DNA from: an uncultured Caulobacterales bacterium
GTDB taxonomy: Bacteria > Pseudomonadota > Alphaproteobacteria > Caulobacterales > Maricaulaceae
Assembly: GCA_938001915.1 (NCBI GenBank)
Contig: CALLBD010000026.1
Location: forward strand, 1 to 60,077
Reading direction: 5' to 3'
Length of the DNA stretch: 60,077 nt
Position numbers and translations under genes: made by a program. The notes beneath the pieces are model-generated. The model ran no database searches and had not been told where the DNA came from. It saw only the letters and a program-made list of their open reading frames with translations. Positions 53,385 through 58,935 of this stretch are shown here, one piece after another; within the stretch, counting starts at the first letter, position 1; every line of letters starts with the position of its first letter.

Positions 53385-54581
53385 ATGACCCAAGCTCCCG
53401 ATATGATTATTGTAGGTGCTGGCCTTTCAGGGTTGCTCACGGCTTGGCGCTGTTTGGATGTAAATCCAGATTTGCAAATTGAAATAATTGAGGCCTCTGA
53501 CAGGATTGCGGGGGATCATACCTGGTCTTTTAATCTGACAGATGTCGCCGAGCACTTGCAGGGTTGGATAAAGCCTTTCATTGCCTATCGCTGGGATAGC
53601 TATGATGTGAAGTTTCCAAAGCGGAAACGTACATTGGATATTCCATATTGCACAGGAAATTCAGACACGCTGCGAGCGTGTGTGCAGCTACACATAGACA
53701 GCGGGCGTTTGCGCCTCCGTTTGAATACAGCTGTTGAGAGTCTACACTCTGATTATGTAGTTCTCGAGTCTGGAGAGAAACTCGAGGCGCGGGGCGTGCT
53801 CGACGCGCGCGGTTTTGAACCCAATGACGATGTCTTTCTTGGCTATCAAAAATTTGTCGGCCACGTCATCAAGACGAAAGAGCCGCATGGGCTTGAGCGT
53901 CCCATTATCATGGATGCAACGGTTGAGCAGTTGGGCGGCTACCGTTTTGTCTATTGCTTGCCTTATTCTGAAACTGAAGTCCTTGTCGAAGATACATATT
54001 ATACGGATGGGCCAGAGCTTCGCAGCCAAGAGGTCGATGCGCGTATTAAGGATTATATTCGGGATAATCTGAATGTGAGTGAATATGAGGTTGTTCGTAG
54101 GGAAAAGGGTGTGTTGCCGATAACTTTAGGCGTTCAAGATAGATATGACGCGGCACCTGCCCTAGGTATTCGAGGTGGTTTTTATCACGCTGTGACAGGG
54201 TATAGTTTTCCTGAGGCTTTGAAGAATGCTGATTGGATTGCCTATAAAATCGATCTTTTTGGGGAAGATTGGGACCACGAAACTTCTGATCATACTCTTC
54301 AAGTTAACCGCACCCAACATCGCCAAGACGAACGCTTCCTACGTCTCCTAAACCGTATGCTCTTTCGCGCCGCCAAACCCGAAGAGCGTTACTCCGTCCT
54401 GCAACGTTTCTATGGCTTAAACCAAGGTCTCATTGAGCGGTTTTATGCGGGGCAACTAAAATGGTATGATAAGGCTCGAATTCTAATCGGAAAGCCGCCT
54501 GTGCCCGTACATAAAGCACTCTATAATTTATCAGAGAAAGCCTTTATCAGGCGCGAAAGAGCGAAACGAGATTCTAAGTGA
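53385..54581 (+). CDS. crtY: Lycopene beta-cyclase, CrtY type
   Basis: A 398-residue cyclase that turns lycopene into beta-carotene. Seen: the dinucleotide-binding MIIVGAGLSGLLTAWR, a DHTWSF motif, VLDARG, YRFVYCLPYSETEVLVEDTYY-type strand with the conserved LVEDT, and RGGFYHAVTGYSFP. These are CrtY-family signatures and argue against the CrtL and CrtYcd types. Its stop overlaps the crtI GTG start by four bases. Confidence 0.95.
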   Translation: MTQAPDMIIVGAGLSGLLTAWRCLDVNPDLQIEIIEASDRIAGDHTWSFNLTDVAEHLQGWIKPFIAYRWDSYDVKFPKRKRTLDIPYCTGNSDTLRACVQLHIDSGRLRLRLNTAVESLHSDYVVLESGEKLEARGVLDARGFEPNDDVFLGYQKFVGHVIKTKEPHGLERPIIMDATVEQLGGYRFVYCLPYSETEVLVEDTYYTDGPELRSQEVDARIKDYIRDNLNVSEYEVVRREKGVLPITLGVQDRYDAAPALGIRGGFYHAVTGYSFPEALKNADWIAYKIDLFGEDWDHETSDHTLQVNRTQHRQDERFLRLLNRMLFRAAKPEERYSVLQRFYGLNQGLIERFYAGQLKWYDKARILIGKPPVPVHKALYNLSEKAFIRRERAKRDSK

Positions 54582-56131
54582 CTTCATCCACATCATCAAA
54601 ACCCACAGCTATCGTTGTTGGGGCGGGCTTTGGCGGCATTGCGCTGGCCATTCGCCTTCAAGCTATGGGCTTCCAAACGACGCTATTGGATAACCGCGAT
54701 AAGCCAGGCGGCCGTGCCTATGTCTATGAGAAAGGCGGCTTTAAATTTGATGGCGGGCCGACGGTAATTACTGACCCAGATTGCCTAGAAGAATTATTTA
54801 CCCTCGCAGGGCGGGAGATGAAAGATTATGTGGAGCTGCTACCTGTCGACCCTTTCTACCGCCTGCAATGGGAAGATGGCGAGGTGCTGGATTATAATAA
54901 TGATCAAGATTTCCTCGAGGAACAAATCCGCGCGCGGAACCCAGATGATGTGGAAGGCTATCGCAAATTCCTCGCCTATTCGCAGGAACTCTACCGCGAA
55001 GGCTATGAGAAGCTAGGCACGACCGCTTTCCTAAAAATGAGCCAAATGTTTGCCGCTGCGCCGCAGCTCGTGAAGCTTCGCGCGGACCGTAGTGTTTACG
55101 CCCAAGTGTCCAAATTCGTGAAAGATGAAAAGACGCGTCAGCTCCTCTCTTTCCAATCGCTTCTTGTGGGCGGCAACCCCTTTGCGACTTCTGCGATTTA
55201 CGGTCTTATCCATGCGTTAGAGCGCAAGGGCGGGGTTTGGTTCGCCAAAGGCGGCACAGGCGCGCTCGTCGCGGGGCTTGTCAGCCTATTTCAAGATATT
55301 GGCGGCGAGCTTCGCCTGAATAGTGAAGTCACCGATATTCACACCGAAGGCGACCGCGTAACGGGCGTGACAACGAAGGATGGTTGGAGCCAAGATGCCG
55401 ACCTCGTCGCGTCAAATGCGGATGTCGTTCACACCTATCAAAAACTTCTGCGCAAGCATAAGCGCGGGCAGAAATACGGTAAGGCCCTCACTAAAAAGCG
55501 TCACTCTATGTCGCTCTTTGTGATTTATTTCGGTCTCGATATCCCCACGCCAGAACATCTGAAACATCACATTATCCTGTTTGGGCAACGCTACAAGGAA
55601 TTGATCGCGGAGATATTCGGGAAGGGCGGAAAGCTATCCGATGATTTCTCGCTCTATCTGCATGCGCCGAGCAAGACAGACGCGACCATGTCCCCCGAAG
55701 GGAAATCGGCCTATTATGTCCTGGCACCCGTGCCGCATCTGGGTCACGCAGATCTTGATTGGGATGAAATCGGGCCCGCTTATGCGCAGAAGATTTTAGA
55801 CTACCTCGAGGTTCACGCCATTCCGGGATTGAACGACCATCTGGAAGTCATGCACACACTGACGCCATTTGGGTTCCGGGATGATATGAATTCACATCTC
55901 GGTAGTGCCTTTTCTGTTGAGCCAATCCTGACGCAATCTGCGTGGTTCCGCCCGCATAACAGGGATGATGTTATCTCCAATATGTATATAACGGGCGCTG
56001 GTACGCATCCAGGCGCAGGCGTTCCCGGCGTTGTTGGCGCGGCCAAAGCCACCGCTGGCGTAATTCAAGATGATTTCGCAGGTGTCTTGTCCAAACAAAA
56101 CGGCAACGGCGATTGGCCCTCAAATTCATAA
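54578..56131 (+). CDS. crtI: Phytoene desaturase CrtI
   Basis: A 517-residue FAD-dependent desaturase that introduces the double bonds turning phytoene into lycopene. Seen: IVVGAGFGGIALAIRLQ with DKPGGRAYVYE, FDGGPTVIT, WFAKGGTGALVAGL, and the C-terminal GAGTHPGAGVPGVVG. Starts at GTG 54578 in GTGA overlap with crtY. Number of desaturation steps cannot be told from sequence. Confidence 0.96.
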   Translation: MTSSTSSKPTAIVVGAGFGGIALAIRLQAMGFQTTLLDNRDKPGGRAYVYEKGGFKFDGGPTVITDPDCLEELFTLAGREMKDYVELLPVDPFYRLQWEDGEVLDYNNDQDFLEEQIRARNPDDVEGYRKFLAYSQELYREGYEKLGTTAFLKMSQMFAAAPQLVKLRADRSVYAQVSKFVKDEKTRQLLSFQSLLVGGNPFATSAIYGLIHALERKGGVWFAKGGTGALVAGLVSLFQDIGGELRLNSEVTDIHTEGDRVTGVTTKDGWSQDADLVASNADVVHTYQKLLRKHKRGQKYGKALTKKRHSMSLFVIYFGLDIPTPEHLKHHIILFGQRYKELIAEIFGKGGKLSDDFSLYLHAPSKTDATMSPEGKSAYYVLAPVPHLGHADLDWDEIGPAYAQKILDYLEVHAIPGLNDHLEVMHTLTPFGFRDDMNSHLGSAFSVEPILTQSAWFRPHNRDDVISNMYITGAGTHPGAGVPGVVGAAKATAGVIQDDFAGVLSKQNGNGDWPSNS

Positions 56132-56164
56132 CTTGCTTTTCATTCTTCATCAAAAGGTACACAA

Positions 56165-56677
56165 ATGTCTGATCTTTCCATGTCTAATGCCGTAAGTGCT
56201 TTGCCAAAACTTGTCGGCAATCTTGAACATATTCTGCGCAAGGCAGAACAAAATGCTGAAGAGCGCGGGATTGATATGGAGGTTTTGCTTAATTCGCGTC
56301 TCGCGCCAGATATGCATCCACTTTATAAGCAAGTTCTCATGGTTTGTGATTTGGCGAAAATGGCACCCTATCGCATCGCAGGGCTCACGCCGCCGAAATA
56401 TGATGATAGTGAGCGCACATTAGATGAGCTTTATGGTTTAATTGAAAAGACCAAAGCTGATGTAGCAGCGGTGACGCCCGATCAATTAGATGGACGCGAA
56501 GACGTCGAGTTTATGGTGAAATTAGGTCCGCGCGGGGACGTGCCATTCACGGGCATTGTCTATTTATCATCATTCACACTTCCGAACCTGCATTTCCATA
56601 TTACAACCGCTTATAATATCCTGCGCCATAACGGCGTGCCGCTCGGTAAGTTCGATTATTTCGGCGGCAGTTTGTAG
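56165..56677 (+). CDS. DUF1993-family protein in the carotenoid operon
   Basis: A 170-residue DUF1993-family protein. Seen: LPKLVGNLEHILRKAEQNAEERG, LLNSRLAPDMHPLYKQV, and the C-terminal NLHFHITTAYNILRHNG with conserved histidines. The fold resembles DinB-like four-helix bundles that can bind a metal; function is unknown. It follows crtI by 33 bases on the same strand, so it is likely part of the crt transcript, and AAGG precedes its ATG. Confidence 0.82.
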   Translation: MSDLSMSNAVSALPKLVGNLEHILRKAEQNAEERGIDMEVLLNSRLAPDMHPLYKQVLMVCDLAKMAPYRIAGLTPPKYDDSERTLDELYGLIEKTKADVAAVTPDQLDGREDVEFMVKLGPRGDVPFTGIVYLSSFTLPNLHFHITTAYNILRHNGVPLGKFDYFGGSL

Positions 56678-56715
56678 GCTTTTACCGTAGGCAAGCGACA
56701 ACGCTTACTGCCCGT

Positions 56716-56735
56716 GTTGAAACTTTGGTTTCAAC
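56716..56735 (+). terminator. Hairpin after the crtY-crtI-DUF1993 unit
   Basis: GTTGAAAC, TTTG, GTTTCAAC: a perfect 8-base stem 39 bases after the stop. A weaker AAGCG/CGCTT hairpin lies just before it. There is no T-tract, so a factor-dependent terminator or mRNA-protecting hairpin is as likely as intrinsic termination. Confidence 0.4.
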
Positions 56736-56769
56736 AAGGAAACAGCCAAATTCTTATCATAAGGCAATT

Positions 56770-56935
56770 AGGACGTGCCCGCAGATGTGTCTTCTCGATG
56801 GAGGCGAAACGTCCGCAATCGACCCTGTGAGTCGATTGCAGTGTAGCGCCGAACGGCTAAGTCGTTCGGTGTGCAATGTTAGAGTTATAGGCAAGTTGAA
56901 TTCCTCACTGCCTATCGAGAGGTCAGCCGAAACTA
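56770..56935 (+). repeat. Dispersed intergenic repeat, copy C
   Basis: Begins AGGACGTGCCCGCAGATG and CGATGGA like copy B, then follows copy D (inverted at 24385-24537) through two hairpins: GCAATCGAC with GTCGATTGC, and CCGAACG with CGTTCGG. Both stems are perfect here; in D the second is perfect. Apparent coding across C and D is a by-product of this conservation. Confidence 0.8.
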
Positions 56936-56946
56936 AAATATAAAAC

Positions 56947-57262
56947 AGGACGTGCCCGCAGATGTGTCTTCCCGATGGAATACCAAAGGGTAGAAGAAGT
57001 TTTGTTTTACGCGAAGACTCGTGGAATTGGCTTACAGCCAAATCCACAGCGTGCATTTTTTGCAGAGCAAAAATTGCACTATCTGCGGCGATGGTTTTTG
57101 AAGAAACGGCCGGTGCAACCCCAGAGTTGGCCCACTTGGAACCACTGGTCGGCTCTCGTTCCTAAAGCCCCGGCACAGTCCACACTCTCACATGCAGATG
57201 CTCAGACCCATCGTCTCTCGAACCAGCAAGTAAGCGCTCACCTGTCCATTGCTCGAAAGAAC
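56947..57262 (+). repeat. Dispersed intergenic repeat, copy B
   Basis: Starts with the same AGGACGTGCCCGCAGATG left end as copy C, 177 bases further on, then continues like copy A (GTTTTGTTTTACGC; GCGATGGTTTTTGA; AGCCCCGGCACAGTCC to CTCACCTGTCC). Copies B and C together fill most of the roughly 780-base gap 56678-57461 before crtB; no gene is supported there. Confidence 0.75.
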
Positions 57263-57461
57263 TTCATCAACCTATCACACCTTTCGGCGCTGAGGATTAT
57301 TCTCTATGTTTTTGTATTAAGAGTCTGAAAAGATGAAATTTTTGATTTTTTGAAACGAGGAAAGACATTTAATATGAGTGATTTTAAGTGGCCCCGCCTT
57401 GCCCCTTGTTCGCTCTGTCATTCTGCTTTCCATAGCTCGCAAACCAACCTATCCAATATTT

Positions 57462-58385
57462 ATGGATTCTGTTGCTGCACATGGAAACGCCTCAATCAAA
57501 AAAGGCTCTAAGTCTTTTGCGCTGGCGAGCCGTGTATTGCCGCCAGCTCTGCGCGACGACGCGGCGATGCTTTATGCGTGGTGCCGCTATTGCGATGACG
57601 TAATTGACGGGCAGGAAATGGGCCATGGCCAGATTGAGGATTACAAAATTGGGCAAGGCGCGCGCCTCGAAATGCTGCGAATTAAAACCCGCGCTGCGCT
57701 AAATGGGGAGCCTACAGAAGACCCTGTTTTCAAAGGTTTAGCGCGTGTTGTTAAAACGCACGAAATAGATCATCGTCACCCATTTGATTTACTCAAAGGG
57801 TTTGAGATGGACGCGGAAGCGCGTGTGTATAAGTCTGTGGATGATATTCTGGATTATTCTTACCACGTCGCAGGGGTCGTTGGGGTGATGATGGCCAATA
57901 TTATGGGCGTGCGGGATGCGGCGACCCTCGACCGCGCCAGTGATTTGGGGCTGGCATTCCAGTTGACGAACATAGCCCGCGATGTGATTGATGATGCCAA
58001 AGCGGACCGTGTCTTTGTTCCGCAAGATTTATTGTTGGGGGCAGGCGCGCCTGTGAATGCTGGGGATCAACTCGACCGCGCCAATTGGCCCGCGCTCCAC
58101 AAAGCGGCCTGCGCGCAGTTAGATATAGCCGAAAAATATTACGCCAGCGCGAAAGTTGGGATTAAAGAGCTCGATTTCAGATGCGCCTGGGCCATCAGCG
58201 CGGCGCTGAAAGTCTACCGCGAGATTGGCGAAAAATTGCGTGAGGGCGGCCCAGAGGCATGGGAAGGCCGCGTCGGTGCGAGTGGCAAGCGGAAGGTGGC
58301 TTTGGCGCTGGGCGCGGTTGGCCCTGCTTTGCGGCGGAAGTCTGTGGGGATGACGTCGCGTGATGGTTTCTACGAGAGGCCTTAA
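57462..58385 (+). CDS. crtB: Phytoene synthase CrtB
   Basis: A 307-residue head-to-head prenyl synthase that joins two GGPP into phytoene. Seen: KSFALASRVLP, the first aspartate motif YCDDVIDG near residues 49-56, YSYHVAGVVGVMM, and the second aspartate motif NIARDVIDDAKADRVF. ATG 57462 gives the family start; a GTG at 57378 is possible but adds unrelated residues. It is separated from crtY-crtI by two repeat copies and so has its own promoter or reads through. Confidence 0.93.
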   Translation: MDSVAAHGNASIKKGSKSFALASRVLPPALRDDAAMLYAWCRYCDDVIDGQEMGHGQIEDYKIGQGARLEMLRIKTRAALNGEPTEDPVFKGLARVVKTHEIDHRHPFDLLKGFEMDAEARVYKSVDDILDYSYHVAGVVGVMMANIMGVRDAATLDRASDLGLAFQLTNIARDVIDDAKADRVFVPQDLLLGAGAPVNAGDQLDRANWPALHKAACAQLDIAEKYYASAKVGIKELDFRCAWAISAALKVYREIGEKLREGGPEAWEGRVGASGKRKVALALGAVGPALRRKSVGMTSRDGFYERP

Positions 58386-58404: not shown

Positions 58405-58435
58405 AAAGGTCCTAGGCACGGAGGCCTAGGATGAC
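58405..58435 (-). repeat. REP-like palindrome R1
   Basis: GGTCCTAGG-CACGGAGG-CCTAGGATGAC: a stem unit in the reverse orientation to R2. It forms the left member of the first inverted pair, 43 bases from R2, and starts 20 bases after the crtB stop. Confidence 0.8.
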
Positions 58436-58478
58436 GTTTCTTTTTTTAAATATAGTTTTTTGGCTCTTCAATTTTTTT

Positions 58479-58508
58479 GTCATCCTAGGGCTTGTCCCTA
58501 GGACCTTT
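58479..58508 (+). repeat. REP-like palindrome R2
   Basis: GTCATCCTAGGG-CTTG-TCCCTAGGACC, followed by TTT: same family as R1 in opposite orientation, so R1-R2 form a REPIN-like structure. It ends 17 bases before the GIY-YIG start. Confidence 0.85.
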
Positions 58509-58525
58509 GGTTCTAGACTTAAGAA

Positions 58526-58837
58526 ATGAAATGTCCTTGCGTCTACATGTTAGCCTCATCGAAAAACGGTAGCCTGTATCTCGGTGTCACAAGTGATTTG
58601 CCTAGCCGTATGCAAGATCATCTTGAAGGGCGTGGTTCTAAACATGCTACGAAATATCAAATTCGCCGCCTTGTTTGGTTTGAATCATTCGACGATATGC
58701 CAACTGCCATTCAAAAAGAGAAATCGTTGAAGCGGTATAAACGGCAATGGAAAATCAATTTAATTGAAGAAAATAATCCGCAATGGTTACCGCTTGATCC
58801 AACAACGGGTGAGTTTGTCCCTTTTGAGTTTGGGTAG
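58526..58837 (+). CDS. Small GIY-YIG nuclease-domain protein
   Basis: A 103-residue single-domain protein of the GIY-YIG (UvrC-N-like) superfamily, usually about 90-110 residues when stand-alone. Seen: CVYMLA and LYLGVTSD at about 5-22 (replacing GIY and YIG, with the tyrosines kept), a catalytic-type arginine in PSRMQDH, HATKYQIRRLVWFE, and the metal-binding glutamate in QKEKSLKRYKR. It should cut or nick DNA, but specificity is unknown. It is a lone gene between palindrome pairs R1-R2 and R3-R4, suggesting a mobile or palindrome-directed nuclease. Confidence 0.88.
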   Translation: MKCPCVYMLASSKNGSLYLGVTSDLPSRMQDHLEGRGSKHATKYQIRRLVWFESFDDMPTAIQKEKSLKRYKRQWKINLIEENNPQWLPLDPTTGEFVPFEFG

Positions 58838-58852
58838 TCAGTCGTAACAATT

Positions 58853-58882
58853 GTCATCCTTGGCCTTGTGCCAAGGACCTTT
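58853..58882 (+). repeat. REP-like palindrome R3
   Basis: GTCATCCTTGG-CCTTGTG-CCAAGGACC, then TTT: same unit as R2 with matched changes on both arms (AG to TG and CT to CA), so the stem is preserved. It begins 15 bases after the GIY-YIG stop. Confidence 0.85.
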
Positions 58883-58905
58883 GATGCAATTCCAAAGTTT
58901 ATACT

Positions 58906-58935
58906 AAGGGTCCTAGGGACAAGCCCTAGGATGAC
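58906..58935 (-). repeat. REP-like palindrome R4
   Basis: AAGGGTCCTAGGG-ACAAG-CCCTAGGATGAC: reverse orientation, 23 bases from R3, completing the second inverted pair. It also supplies the last codons and stop of the gene at 58926-59159. Confidence 0.85.

Follow-up and report, generated by a model that had tools for sequence, protein, structure and literature searches.

What is a single small nuclease gene doing between two inverted pairs of palindromes? The window analysed here, that is, the whole stretch of 60,077 nucleotides of contig CALLBD010000026.1 from an uncultured Caulobacterales bacterium, holds such an arrangement (Table 1). The sequence-only reading of this DNA had proposed either a distinct mobile module, in which the GIY-YIG protein nicks or spreads the palindromes, or a nuclease gene that was itself mobilised.

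Table 1. Positions in the window of the four palindromes and of the gene that they bracket
Feature	Position	Strand	Description	Basis
R1	58408-58435	-	CGTC-tagged palindrome, loop 6, variety 2 (AGGCC..GCCT)	pattern match
R2	58479-58505	+	TGTC-tagged palindrome, 8-bp stem, 5-nt loop, variety 1	pattern match
GIY-YIG nuclease gene	58526-58837	+	103 aa, class B	ORF list and Pfam GIY-YIG
R3	58853-58879	+	TGTC-tagged palindrome, variety 2, compensating arm change CCTTGG/CCAAGG	pattern match
R4	58909-58935	-	CGTC-tagged palindrome, identical to R2	pattern match

The locus and its genome

The bracketing of the gene by R1-R2 and R3-R4 is confirmed by the coordinates, by the presence of one ORF only between R2 and R3, and by the Pfam match of that ORF (GIY-YIG, PF01541, 56.2 bits, E 4.4e-15), whose ATG lies 20 bp after the end of R2. 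The four units share the pattern GTCATCCT..AGGACC, and their arm changes are paired on both sides (CCTAGG/CCTAGG, CCTTGG/CCAAGG), as had been read from the letters; the outermost stem pair, A-C, is broken in all four. The exact pattern GTCATCCTN{10,14}AGGACC has four matches in the window and none in 100 dinucleotide shuffles of it. R2 and R4 make up the identical outer pair of a tags-out unit, while R1 and R3 belong to the second variety. R1-R2 are oriented '< >', with their tags inward, and R3-R4 '> <', with their tags outward, which is also the layout of a lone dimer on contig C23 of the same genome.

The module neighbours a carotenoid-type cluster (54578-58385) that comprises a gene with an Amino_oxidase domain (crtI-like), a DUF1993 gene and a squalene/phytoene synthase gene. 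Upstream of crtB, a stretch ~0.5 kb long (~56770-57262) matches part of contig C45 (L151 309-802) with 90% identity, and its translation has short internal repeats.

The genome assembly (2.62 Mb in 120 contigs, about 90% complete) contains six matches of the pattern with N{10,24}, the four of the window and the lone pair of contig C23, and no match of the reversed pattern. A wider pattern gives 36 matches, of which 21 are palindromic; with the six of the exact type, this makes 27 CGTC units, several of them arranged as tags-out dimers. Eight of the 27 adjoin three small GIY-YIG genes, whose neighbourhoods (300-bp flanks) represent about 0.1% of the genome (binomial tail 3e-18, the units of a dimer being counted as independent). 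The other 19 lie away from any GIY-YIG gene, so that scatter and association occur side by side; a scatter without any GIY-YIG link, which would have spoken against the sequence-only reading, is contradicted by the strong concentration beside the nuclease genes.

Apart from one match in a 625-aa frame, taken as UvrC, these three are the small GIY-YIG genes of the genome, and all three carry CGTC palindromes, with arms that differ from gene to gene and are matched around each. The palindromes of the other two genes (L001 and L003) are of the varieties ATCCTCGGG..CCCGAGGAT and ATCGTCCGA..TCGGACGAT. The units of the ATTACCG and ATTGCAAG types have no cognate gene in this genome.

A RAYT transposase of matching specificity, which had been raised as the usual mobiliser of REP palindromes, was not found in this genome: the Y1/RAYT family (PF01797) has no match in the ~90% that is covered, and the same search is positive in 5/14 control genomes, including that of Caulobacter vibrioides. 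The lone dimer of contig C23 lies ~0.95 kb from an ORF with the transposase domain HTH_Tnp_1 (L005 88-480). Inspection by eye of the three longest ORFs in each of 12 regions with other lone repeats revealed no transposase, and a search for GIY-YIG relics beside lone palindromes in 12 regions of this genome gave nothing convincing (best E 0.21). Other repeats of ~0.2-0.46 kb, 75-94% identical, recur beside lone palindromes (L141, L146, L147, L150, L153, L155 and L157), and some copies are near contig ends.

A nuclease subfamily and its palindromes

The relatives of the window gene were collected by family- and phylum-wide searches of Pseudomonadota (among the matches listed) and by a scan of viral contigs, and scored with an HMM built from the window's GIY-YIG subfamily (16-sequence alignment). 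The scores of the 201 matches are bimodal: 189 genes reach at least 80 bits, which we call class B, and the other 12, below 60 bits, were dropped. One gene, L095, was reassigned from class B to class A. Nine class B genes without full flanks were also dropped, which leaves 180 testable genes, a set that mixes systematic draws with best-scoring matches, includes near-identical records (for example L214-L218) and contains two genes chosen for their palindromes, the window's own and that of G184 (L161). Strict palindrome scans miss units of the window type because of the A-C first pair, and the counts given below rely on a relaxed scan for CGTC units.

A CGTC unit is present on at least one side of 102/180 class B genes and of 45/682 other ORFs of the same loci, and on both sides of 68/180 class B genes and a single one of the 682 other ORFs (Fisher 4e-47 and 2e-50, respectively). 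The association above chance that the sequence-only reading had proposed to look for is thus found among the relatives. In reversed sequence, a unit turns up on one side or both of five class B genes. Within 100 bp of the 189 class B genes there are 206 CGTC units, compared to three in reversed sequence; the density is 5.5 per kb up to 100 bp, and farther than 1 kb away it is ~0.1 per kb, close to the 0.06-0.07 of reversed sequence at that distance. Units on at least one side are found in all data sets (family 26/55, named genomes 4/5, phylum 47/86, viral contigs 25/34).

The CGTC scan misses 78/180 class B genes, and palindromes with other tags were in part assessed by eye. A 14-mer shared between the flanks is, on its own, found in 126/180 genes, compared to 16/1571 random placements, and either a CGTC unit or a shared 14-mer in 155/180. 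Most of the remaining 25 have, by eye, palindromes with another tag or a long loop on at least one side. Similarly, at 13 of 15 additional class B places in congeners (of 28 listed), the gene is accompanied on one side or both by a palindrome, judged by eye, with tags that include CTCATCCC, TGTCACACC and GTTCCCGG; none was evident by eye beside L327 and the low-scoring L336. The five loci read in named genomes (of six, L016 being left out) all have palindromes, each with arms of its own. In a plasmid collection, 35 records have a match; eight were opened, among them records from Azospirillum lipoferum, Sinorhizobium meliloti and Neisseria, and seven of the eight have palindromes on both sides, by eye, the last one (L360) having a single palindrome about 190 bp downstream of the gene. 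The labels of the matches in the plasmid records include 'GIY-YIG nuclease family protein' and 'excinuclease ABC subunit C'.

Most other GIY-YIG genes of the UPF0213 type are without such palindromes. Class A genes (UPF0213-type and others) have a flank repeat of at least 12 bp in 2/28 cases and a CGTC unit within 300 bp in 1/29. Class C genes (loci L158-L160, L034, L057 and L370-L390 among others; motif ..RCADGSYYVGS..KGWSRAKKEALI) have a shared flank repeat of at least 14 bp in 12/14 cases in a first sample and 12/20 in a second one (control 0/31), or 10/18 if only the new genes are counted, since L370 and L389 are the same as L103 and L086 of the first sample; one of the 21 loci of the second sample was dropped for its short flank. 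The class C repeats often contain CTTCGA..CTCAGG / CCTGAG..TCGAAG (on both sides in 11/20), and no CGTC unit was found within 2 kb of 14 class C genes. Classes B and C pair with different palindromes, which makes two nuclease subfamilies with two palindrome families. A further GIY-YIG type (MWYVYILRS..HTAKF..W; L073, L089 and L092) shows no shared flank repeats of at least 12 bp.

The left and right arms nearest to the gene are identical in 37/53 class B genes with units on both sides (viral contigs left out), compared to 54/2986 random pairs. Within genomes, protein identity is correlated with arm distance (rho -0.66, from 18 non-independent pairs), and across genomes the Mantel rho is -0.22 (81 genes, 0/999 permutations as strong), a value that is confounded by ancestry. 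A host-controlled test with triples, which are not independent, is weakly positive (34 for, 19 against, 6 ties). These comparisons suggest that nuclease and palindrome co-evolve.

Of 71 two-sided genes, 40 have their nearest units arranged as '> gene <', with the tags outside, while 15 show '> gene >', 11 show '< gene >' and 5 show '< gene <'. Units that adjoin one another point in alternating directions in 86/94 cases, and the start codon lies at a median of 22 bp downstream of the upstream unit. Since '> gene <' is the commonest layout, the gene is most often found between the two units of a tags-out dimer, in the spacer; lone dimers, judged by their arrangement, resemble the element minus its gene.

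At the level of genomes, class B is patchy: it is present in 80/299 Pseudomonadota genomes (E 1e-18). It occurs in 11/13 genomes that have more than 200 matches of GTCATN{16,20}ATCCA and in 69/286 others (Fisher 1e-5), and in 17/29 genomes with more than 100 matches and 63/270 others (Fisher 1e-4); the two thresholds were chosen after the counts had been seen, the tally was made by hand, and the Fisher values ignore kinship, related genomes being recurrent in the set. Two of the 11 repeat-rich genomes (G166 and G135) owe their class B status to partial matches, and none was found at the cut-off in the repeat-rich G303 and G095, nor in 12 of the 29 genomes with more than 100 matches. The reversed pattern is a poor control here, because matches from the coding background remain. 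Class B is present in 15/16 congeners; in four of them (G178, G179, G181 and G182), none of the listed GTCAT..ATCCA matches is palindromic by eye, and their class B genes mostly carry other palindromes.

As for the protein itself, Y7, Y18, R28 and E65 are invariant in the 16-sequence alignment, N84 is conserved in at least 90%, and all five are present in the window protein; we take them to be the catalytic Tyr, Arg, Glu and Asn of GIY-YIG enzymes, and class B to be COG2827-like. Class B also has a conserved end (W.RxWK..LIE..NPxW). The structure model of the window protein (pLDDT 91.7) is nearest to UPF0213 (1zg2), then Slx1, then the UvrC domain, with I-TevI far behind, and only 1zg2 matches with E <0.001. 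Since the modelled fold is near that of Slx1, a branched-DNA nuclease, a hairpin or a cruciform is a plausible substrate of the class B proteins. Class B has no PADLOC match that would list it as an anti-phage system.

Copies and empty sites

Genome G036 holds three copies of a class C module, which are 93-97% identical over 475-534 bp and lie in unrelated surroundings. On the right, the copies stop 0-8 bp past a palindrome; on the left, they continue for 23-41 bp beyond the upstream one. No target duplication could be resolved at them. Regarding class B, the plasmid AZO_p3 of A. lipoferum 4B carries, between sufB and sufC, a class B gene flanked left and right by tags-out dimers. The sufB-sufC gap is 617 bp long in this strain, 91 bp in A. 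ramasamyi, 87 bp in A. oryzae, 129 bp in A. sp. B510, 55 bp in A. thermophilum, and 32 bp in both TSH58 and A. argentinense. These six relatives, read from 129 matched records, have neither the gene nor a CGTC palindrome at this place, which suggests that gene and repeats arrived together, the gap sequences being too divergent to define the exact junction. The gap of A. sp. B510 contains an unrelated hairpin.

The presence at several places, together with empty sites, that characterises transposable elements is thus seen in relatives of the window module, in class C (G036) and in class B (A. lipoferum). For the window module itself, 14 congener loci were sampled downstream of crtB, one of which (L179) ends inside crtB. 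Among the 13 readable loci, three contain a module of the window type (the own genome, G183 and G187), the gap of G055 is occupied by another class B gene, whose palindromes are of the ATTACCG type, and nine show no module by eye, in agreement with the places of the class B genes of the congeners; the gap DNA of these 13 loci is too divergent for a junction. The alignment of empty sites therefore yielded six module-less Azospirillum sites, but no clean one for the window module.

The gap between folP and thiD, where the L003 module lies, was compared across 15 such gaps, that of this genome among them, and at a further locus that lacks thiD. The module has an ortholog in G184, by eye, whose palindrome differs by a compensating change; G178 (L349) keeps a decayed remnant of a class B gene together with a Hellea-type palindrome, and G187 half a palindrome, by eye. 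On Rhizobium plasmids, one flank only could be aligned in the module-less records among the matches listed, which gave no clean empty site.

The palindrome-nuclease module is a member of a wide family. Of the distinct mobile module that had been proposed, its recurrence and the mobility of its relatives (the G036 copies, the A. lipoferum site) are retained; it is not peculiar to the window locus.

Known systems and competing explanations

The palindromes of the window are close to the CGTC REPs described in a 2013 survey (Di Nocera, PMC3733652). There, CGTC REPs have an unpaired CGTC tag (or TGTC, CCTC) at one end, a stem of 8-9 bp, a loop of mostly 5 and a short CC-tail, and they form predominantly dimers with the tags outside (termed HH). 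The window units have the same tags (CGTC in R1 and R4, TGTC in R2 and R3), the R3-R4 pair has the same layout, and the 27 units of the genome are likewise repeated and dimeric. In stem, loop and tail the agreement is partial: the stem of CGTC REPs starts with a complementary AT, like that of the L001- and L003-type units of this genome, whereas the 8-bp stem of the window units starts with A-C; the tail is mostly CCA and the loop 4-5 in the survey, while the window units have the tail CCT and a loop of 5 (R2-R4) or 6 (R1). According to the same source, these repeats occur in five phyla, predominantly in Alphaproteobacteria, and include dRS3 of Neisseria (counted as CGTC-1) and RPE-4/RPE-6 of Rickettsia; A. 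lipoferum and S. meliloti are named in its section on CGTC repeats. They 'apparently lack a dedicated transposase' and are described there without association to transposase genes, while here a GIY-YIG gene lies between the units; the authors of the survey raised the possibility that many kinds of transposase mobilise them (PMC3733652). The string 'GIY' is absent from the main text of the survey, and among the matches listed in a full-text literature search, which covered few subscription journals and no preprints, none links GIY-YIG genes to these repeats by its title, counts or abstract start.

Other systems are related in part. In REPtrons (RAYT/TnpA-REP), as here, a small DNA-processing gene lies between inverted palindromes and non-autonomous copies are scattered, but the gene encodes a tyrosine HUH transposase and the tags are GTAG, instead of GIY-YIG and CGTC; the window module was rejected as a REPtron on these grounds, its gene being GIY-YIG and not Y1/HUH in a genome with no PF01797 match. 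Free-standing GIY-YIG homing endonucleases of the I-TevI type share the catalytic fold and a possible self-spreading by cut and repair. Unlike them, class B proteins, of ~100 aa, are too short for an additional DNA-binding domain, no intron was seen, and in the one empty-site case the gene appears to have brought its own palindromes. Compared to UPF0213 (1zg2) and Slx1, the nearest solved structures (Slx1 acting on branched DNA, according to the structure titles), class B is set apart by its W.RxWK..LIE..NPxW end, by genes that are mostly flanked by palindromes and by its patchy spread. Palindrome-associated transposable elements (PATEs) were also considered and set aside: the best 10 of 127 matches are mainly papers on halophiles, with no occurrence of GIY-YIG.

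The association, and the movement of gene and palindromes together in relatives, are established by computation. That the nuclease acts on the palindromes is, we infer, the best-supported explanation, the main rival being homing into existing repeats. The nuclease is the leading suspect because it mostly sits between repeats that have no identified spreading enzyme. We lean towards the reading in which the nuclease and its cognate palindromes form a small mobile element, of which lone dimers are non-autonomous derivatives. The element would consist of one gene and its ends, CGTC-tagged palindromes mostly arranged with the tags outward ('> gene <'). The GIY-YIG protein would recognise its own palindrome variety, folded as a hairpin or cruciform, and cut there; host replication and repair would then copy or insert the palindrome-gene-palindrome unit at a new place or, alternatively, a short palindrome dimer without the gene, lone CGTC dimers being the probable non-autonomous (MITE-like) form. 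Host repair is assumed in this scheme because GIY-YIG enzymes are not known to rejoin strands.

It may instead be that the protein cuts pre-existing palindromes and that repair from a flanked copy inserts the gene, which would then parasitise the repeats and not spread them. The arrangement '[><] gene [><]', with direct dimer copies, is found in L026, L034, L059, G055 and A. lipoferum, the outcome that entry of the gene into a single dimer, with doubling of that dimer, would produce, and class B has a weak similarity to homing endonucleases in PHROG (E about 0.009). Homing predicts that the empty site carries the recognition site, but at sufB-sufC, in one case, the six relatives have neither gene nor CGTC palindrome, and we regard this explanation as unlikely; a history in two steps may have occurred there, the repeat coming first and the gene later, with an unsampled intermediate. 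Less likely still is that another enzyme, from the host or a mobile element, moves the CGTC palindromes, the GIY-YIG gene being cargo that survives in the dimer spacer. GIY-YIG enzymes are not known to be transposases, and 19 of the 27 palindromes of this genome stand alone, one lone dimer being ~0.95 kb from a transposase-type gene; the broad spectrum of transposases considered in the survey (PMC3733652) would also agree with it. If the gene were cargo, different genes would be expected at this position, but it is a single nuclease subfamily that keeps turning up there, and class C does so with another palindrome (12/14, and 10/18 further genes); moreover, the genome has no Y1 transposase match and no transposase was seen by eye among the three longest ORFs of the 12 regions of lone repeats.

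It could also be that selfish genes and repeats merely gather in tolerant gaps, the repeats acting only as terminators or mRNA hairpins, and the gaps downstream of crtB and between folP and thiD do hold varied DNA in congeners. Against this, only 1/682 other ORFs of the same regions is flanked on both sides, class A genes are mostly without palindromes, left and right arms match, and gene and palindromes change place together, so that this explanation is strongly disfavoured and appears very improbable.

The reading of nuclease and palindromes as a mobile element can be extended, more tentatively and at a greater risk of being wrong, to the idea that two GIY-YIG subfamilies are the missing mobilisers of two repeat families: class B would mobilise the CGTC REPs, with dRS3 and RPE among them, and class C the CTTCGA..CTCAGG / CCTGAG..TCGAAG repeats. 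If this is true, there are bacterial mobile elements that use a structure-specific GIY-YIG nuclease on the hairpins of their own ends, and no HUH, DDE, serine or tyrosine recombinase. A nuclease that travels with CGTC REPs and has matched arms gives these repeats a named enzyme candidate, which, if confirmed, could account for how dRS3, RPE and many repeats of Alphaproteobacteria arose. GIY-YIG proteins would then count among the enzymes of bacterial mobile elements, and many genes that are labelled 'GIY-YIG nuclease family protein' or 'excinuclease ABC subunit C' would be mobile elements, not repair genes.
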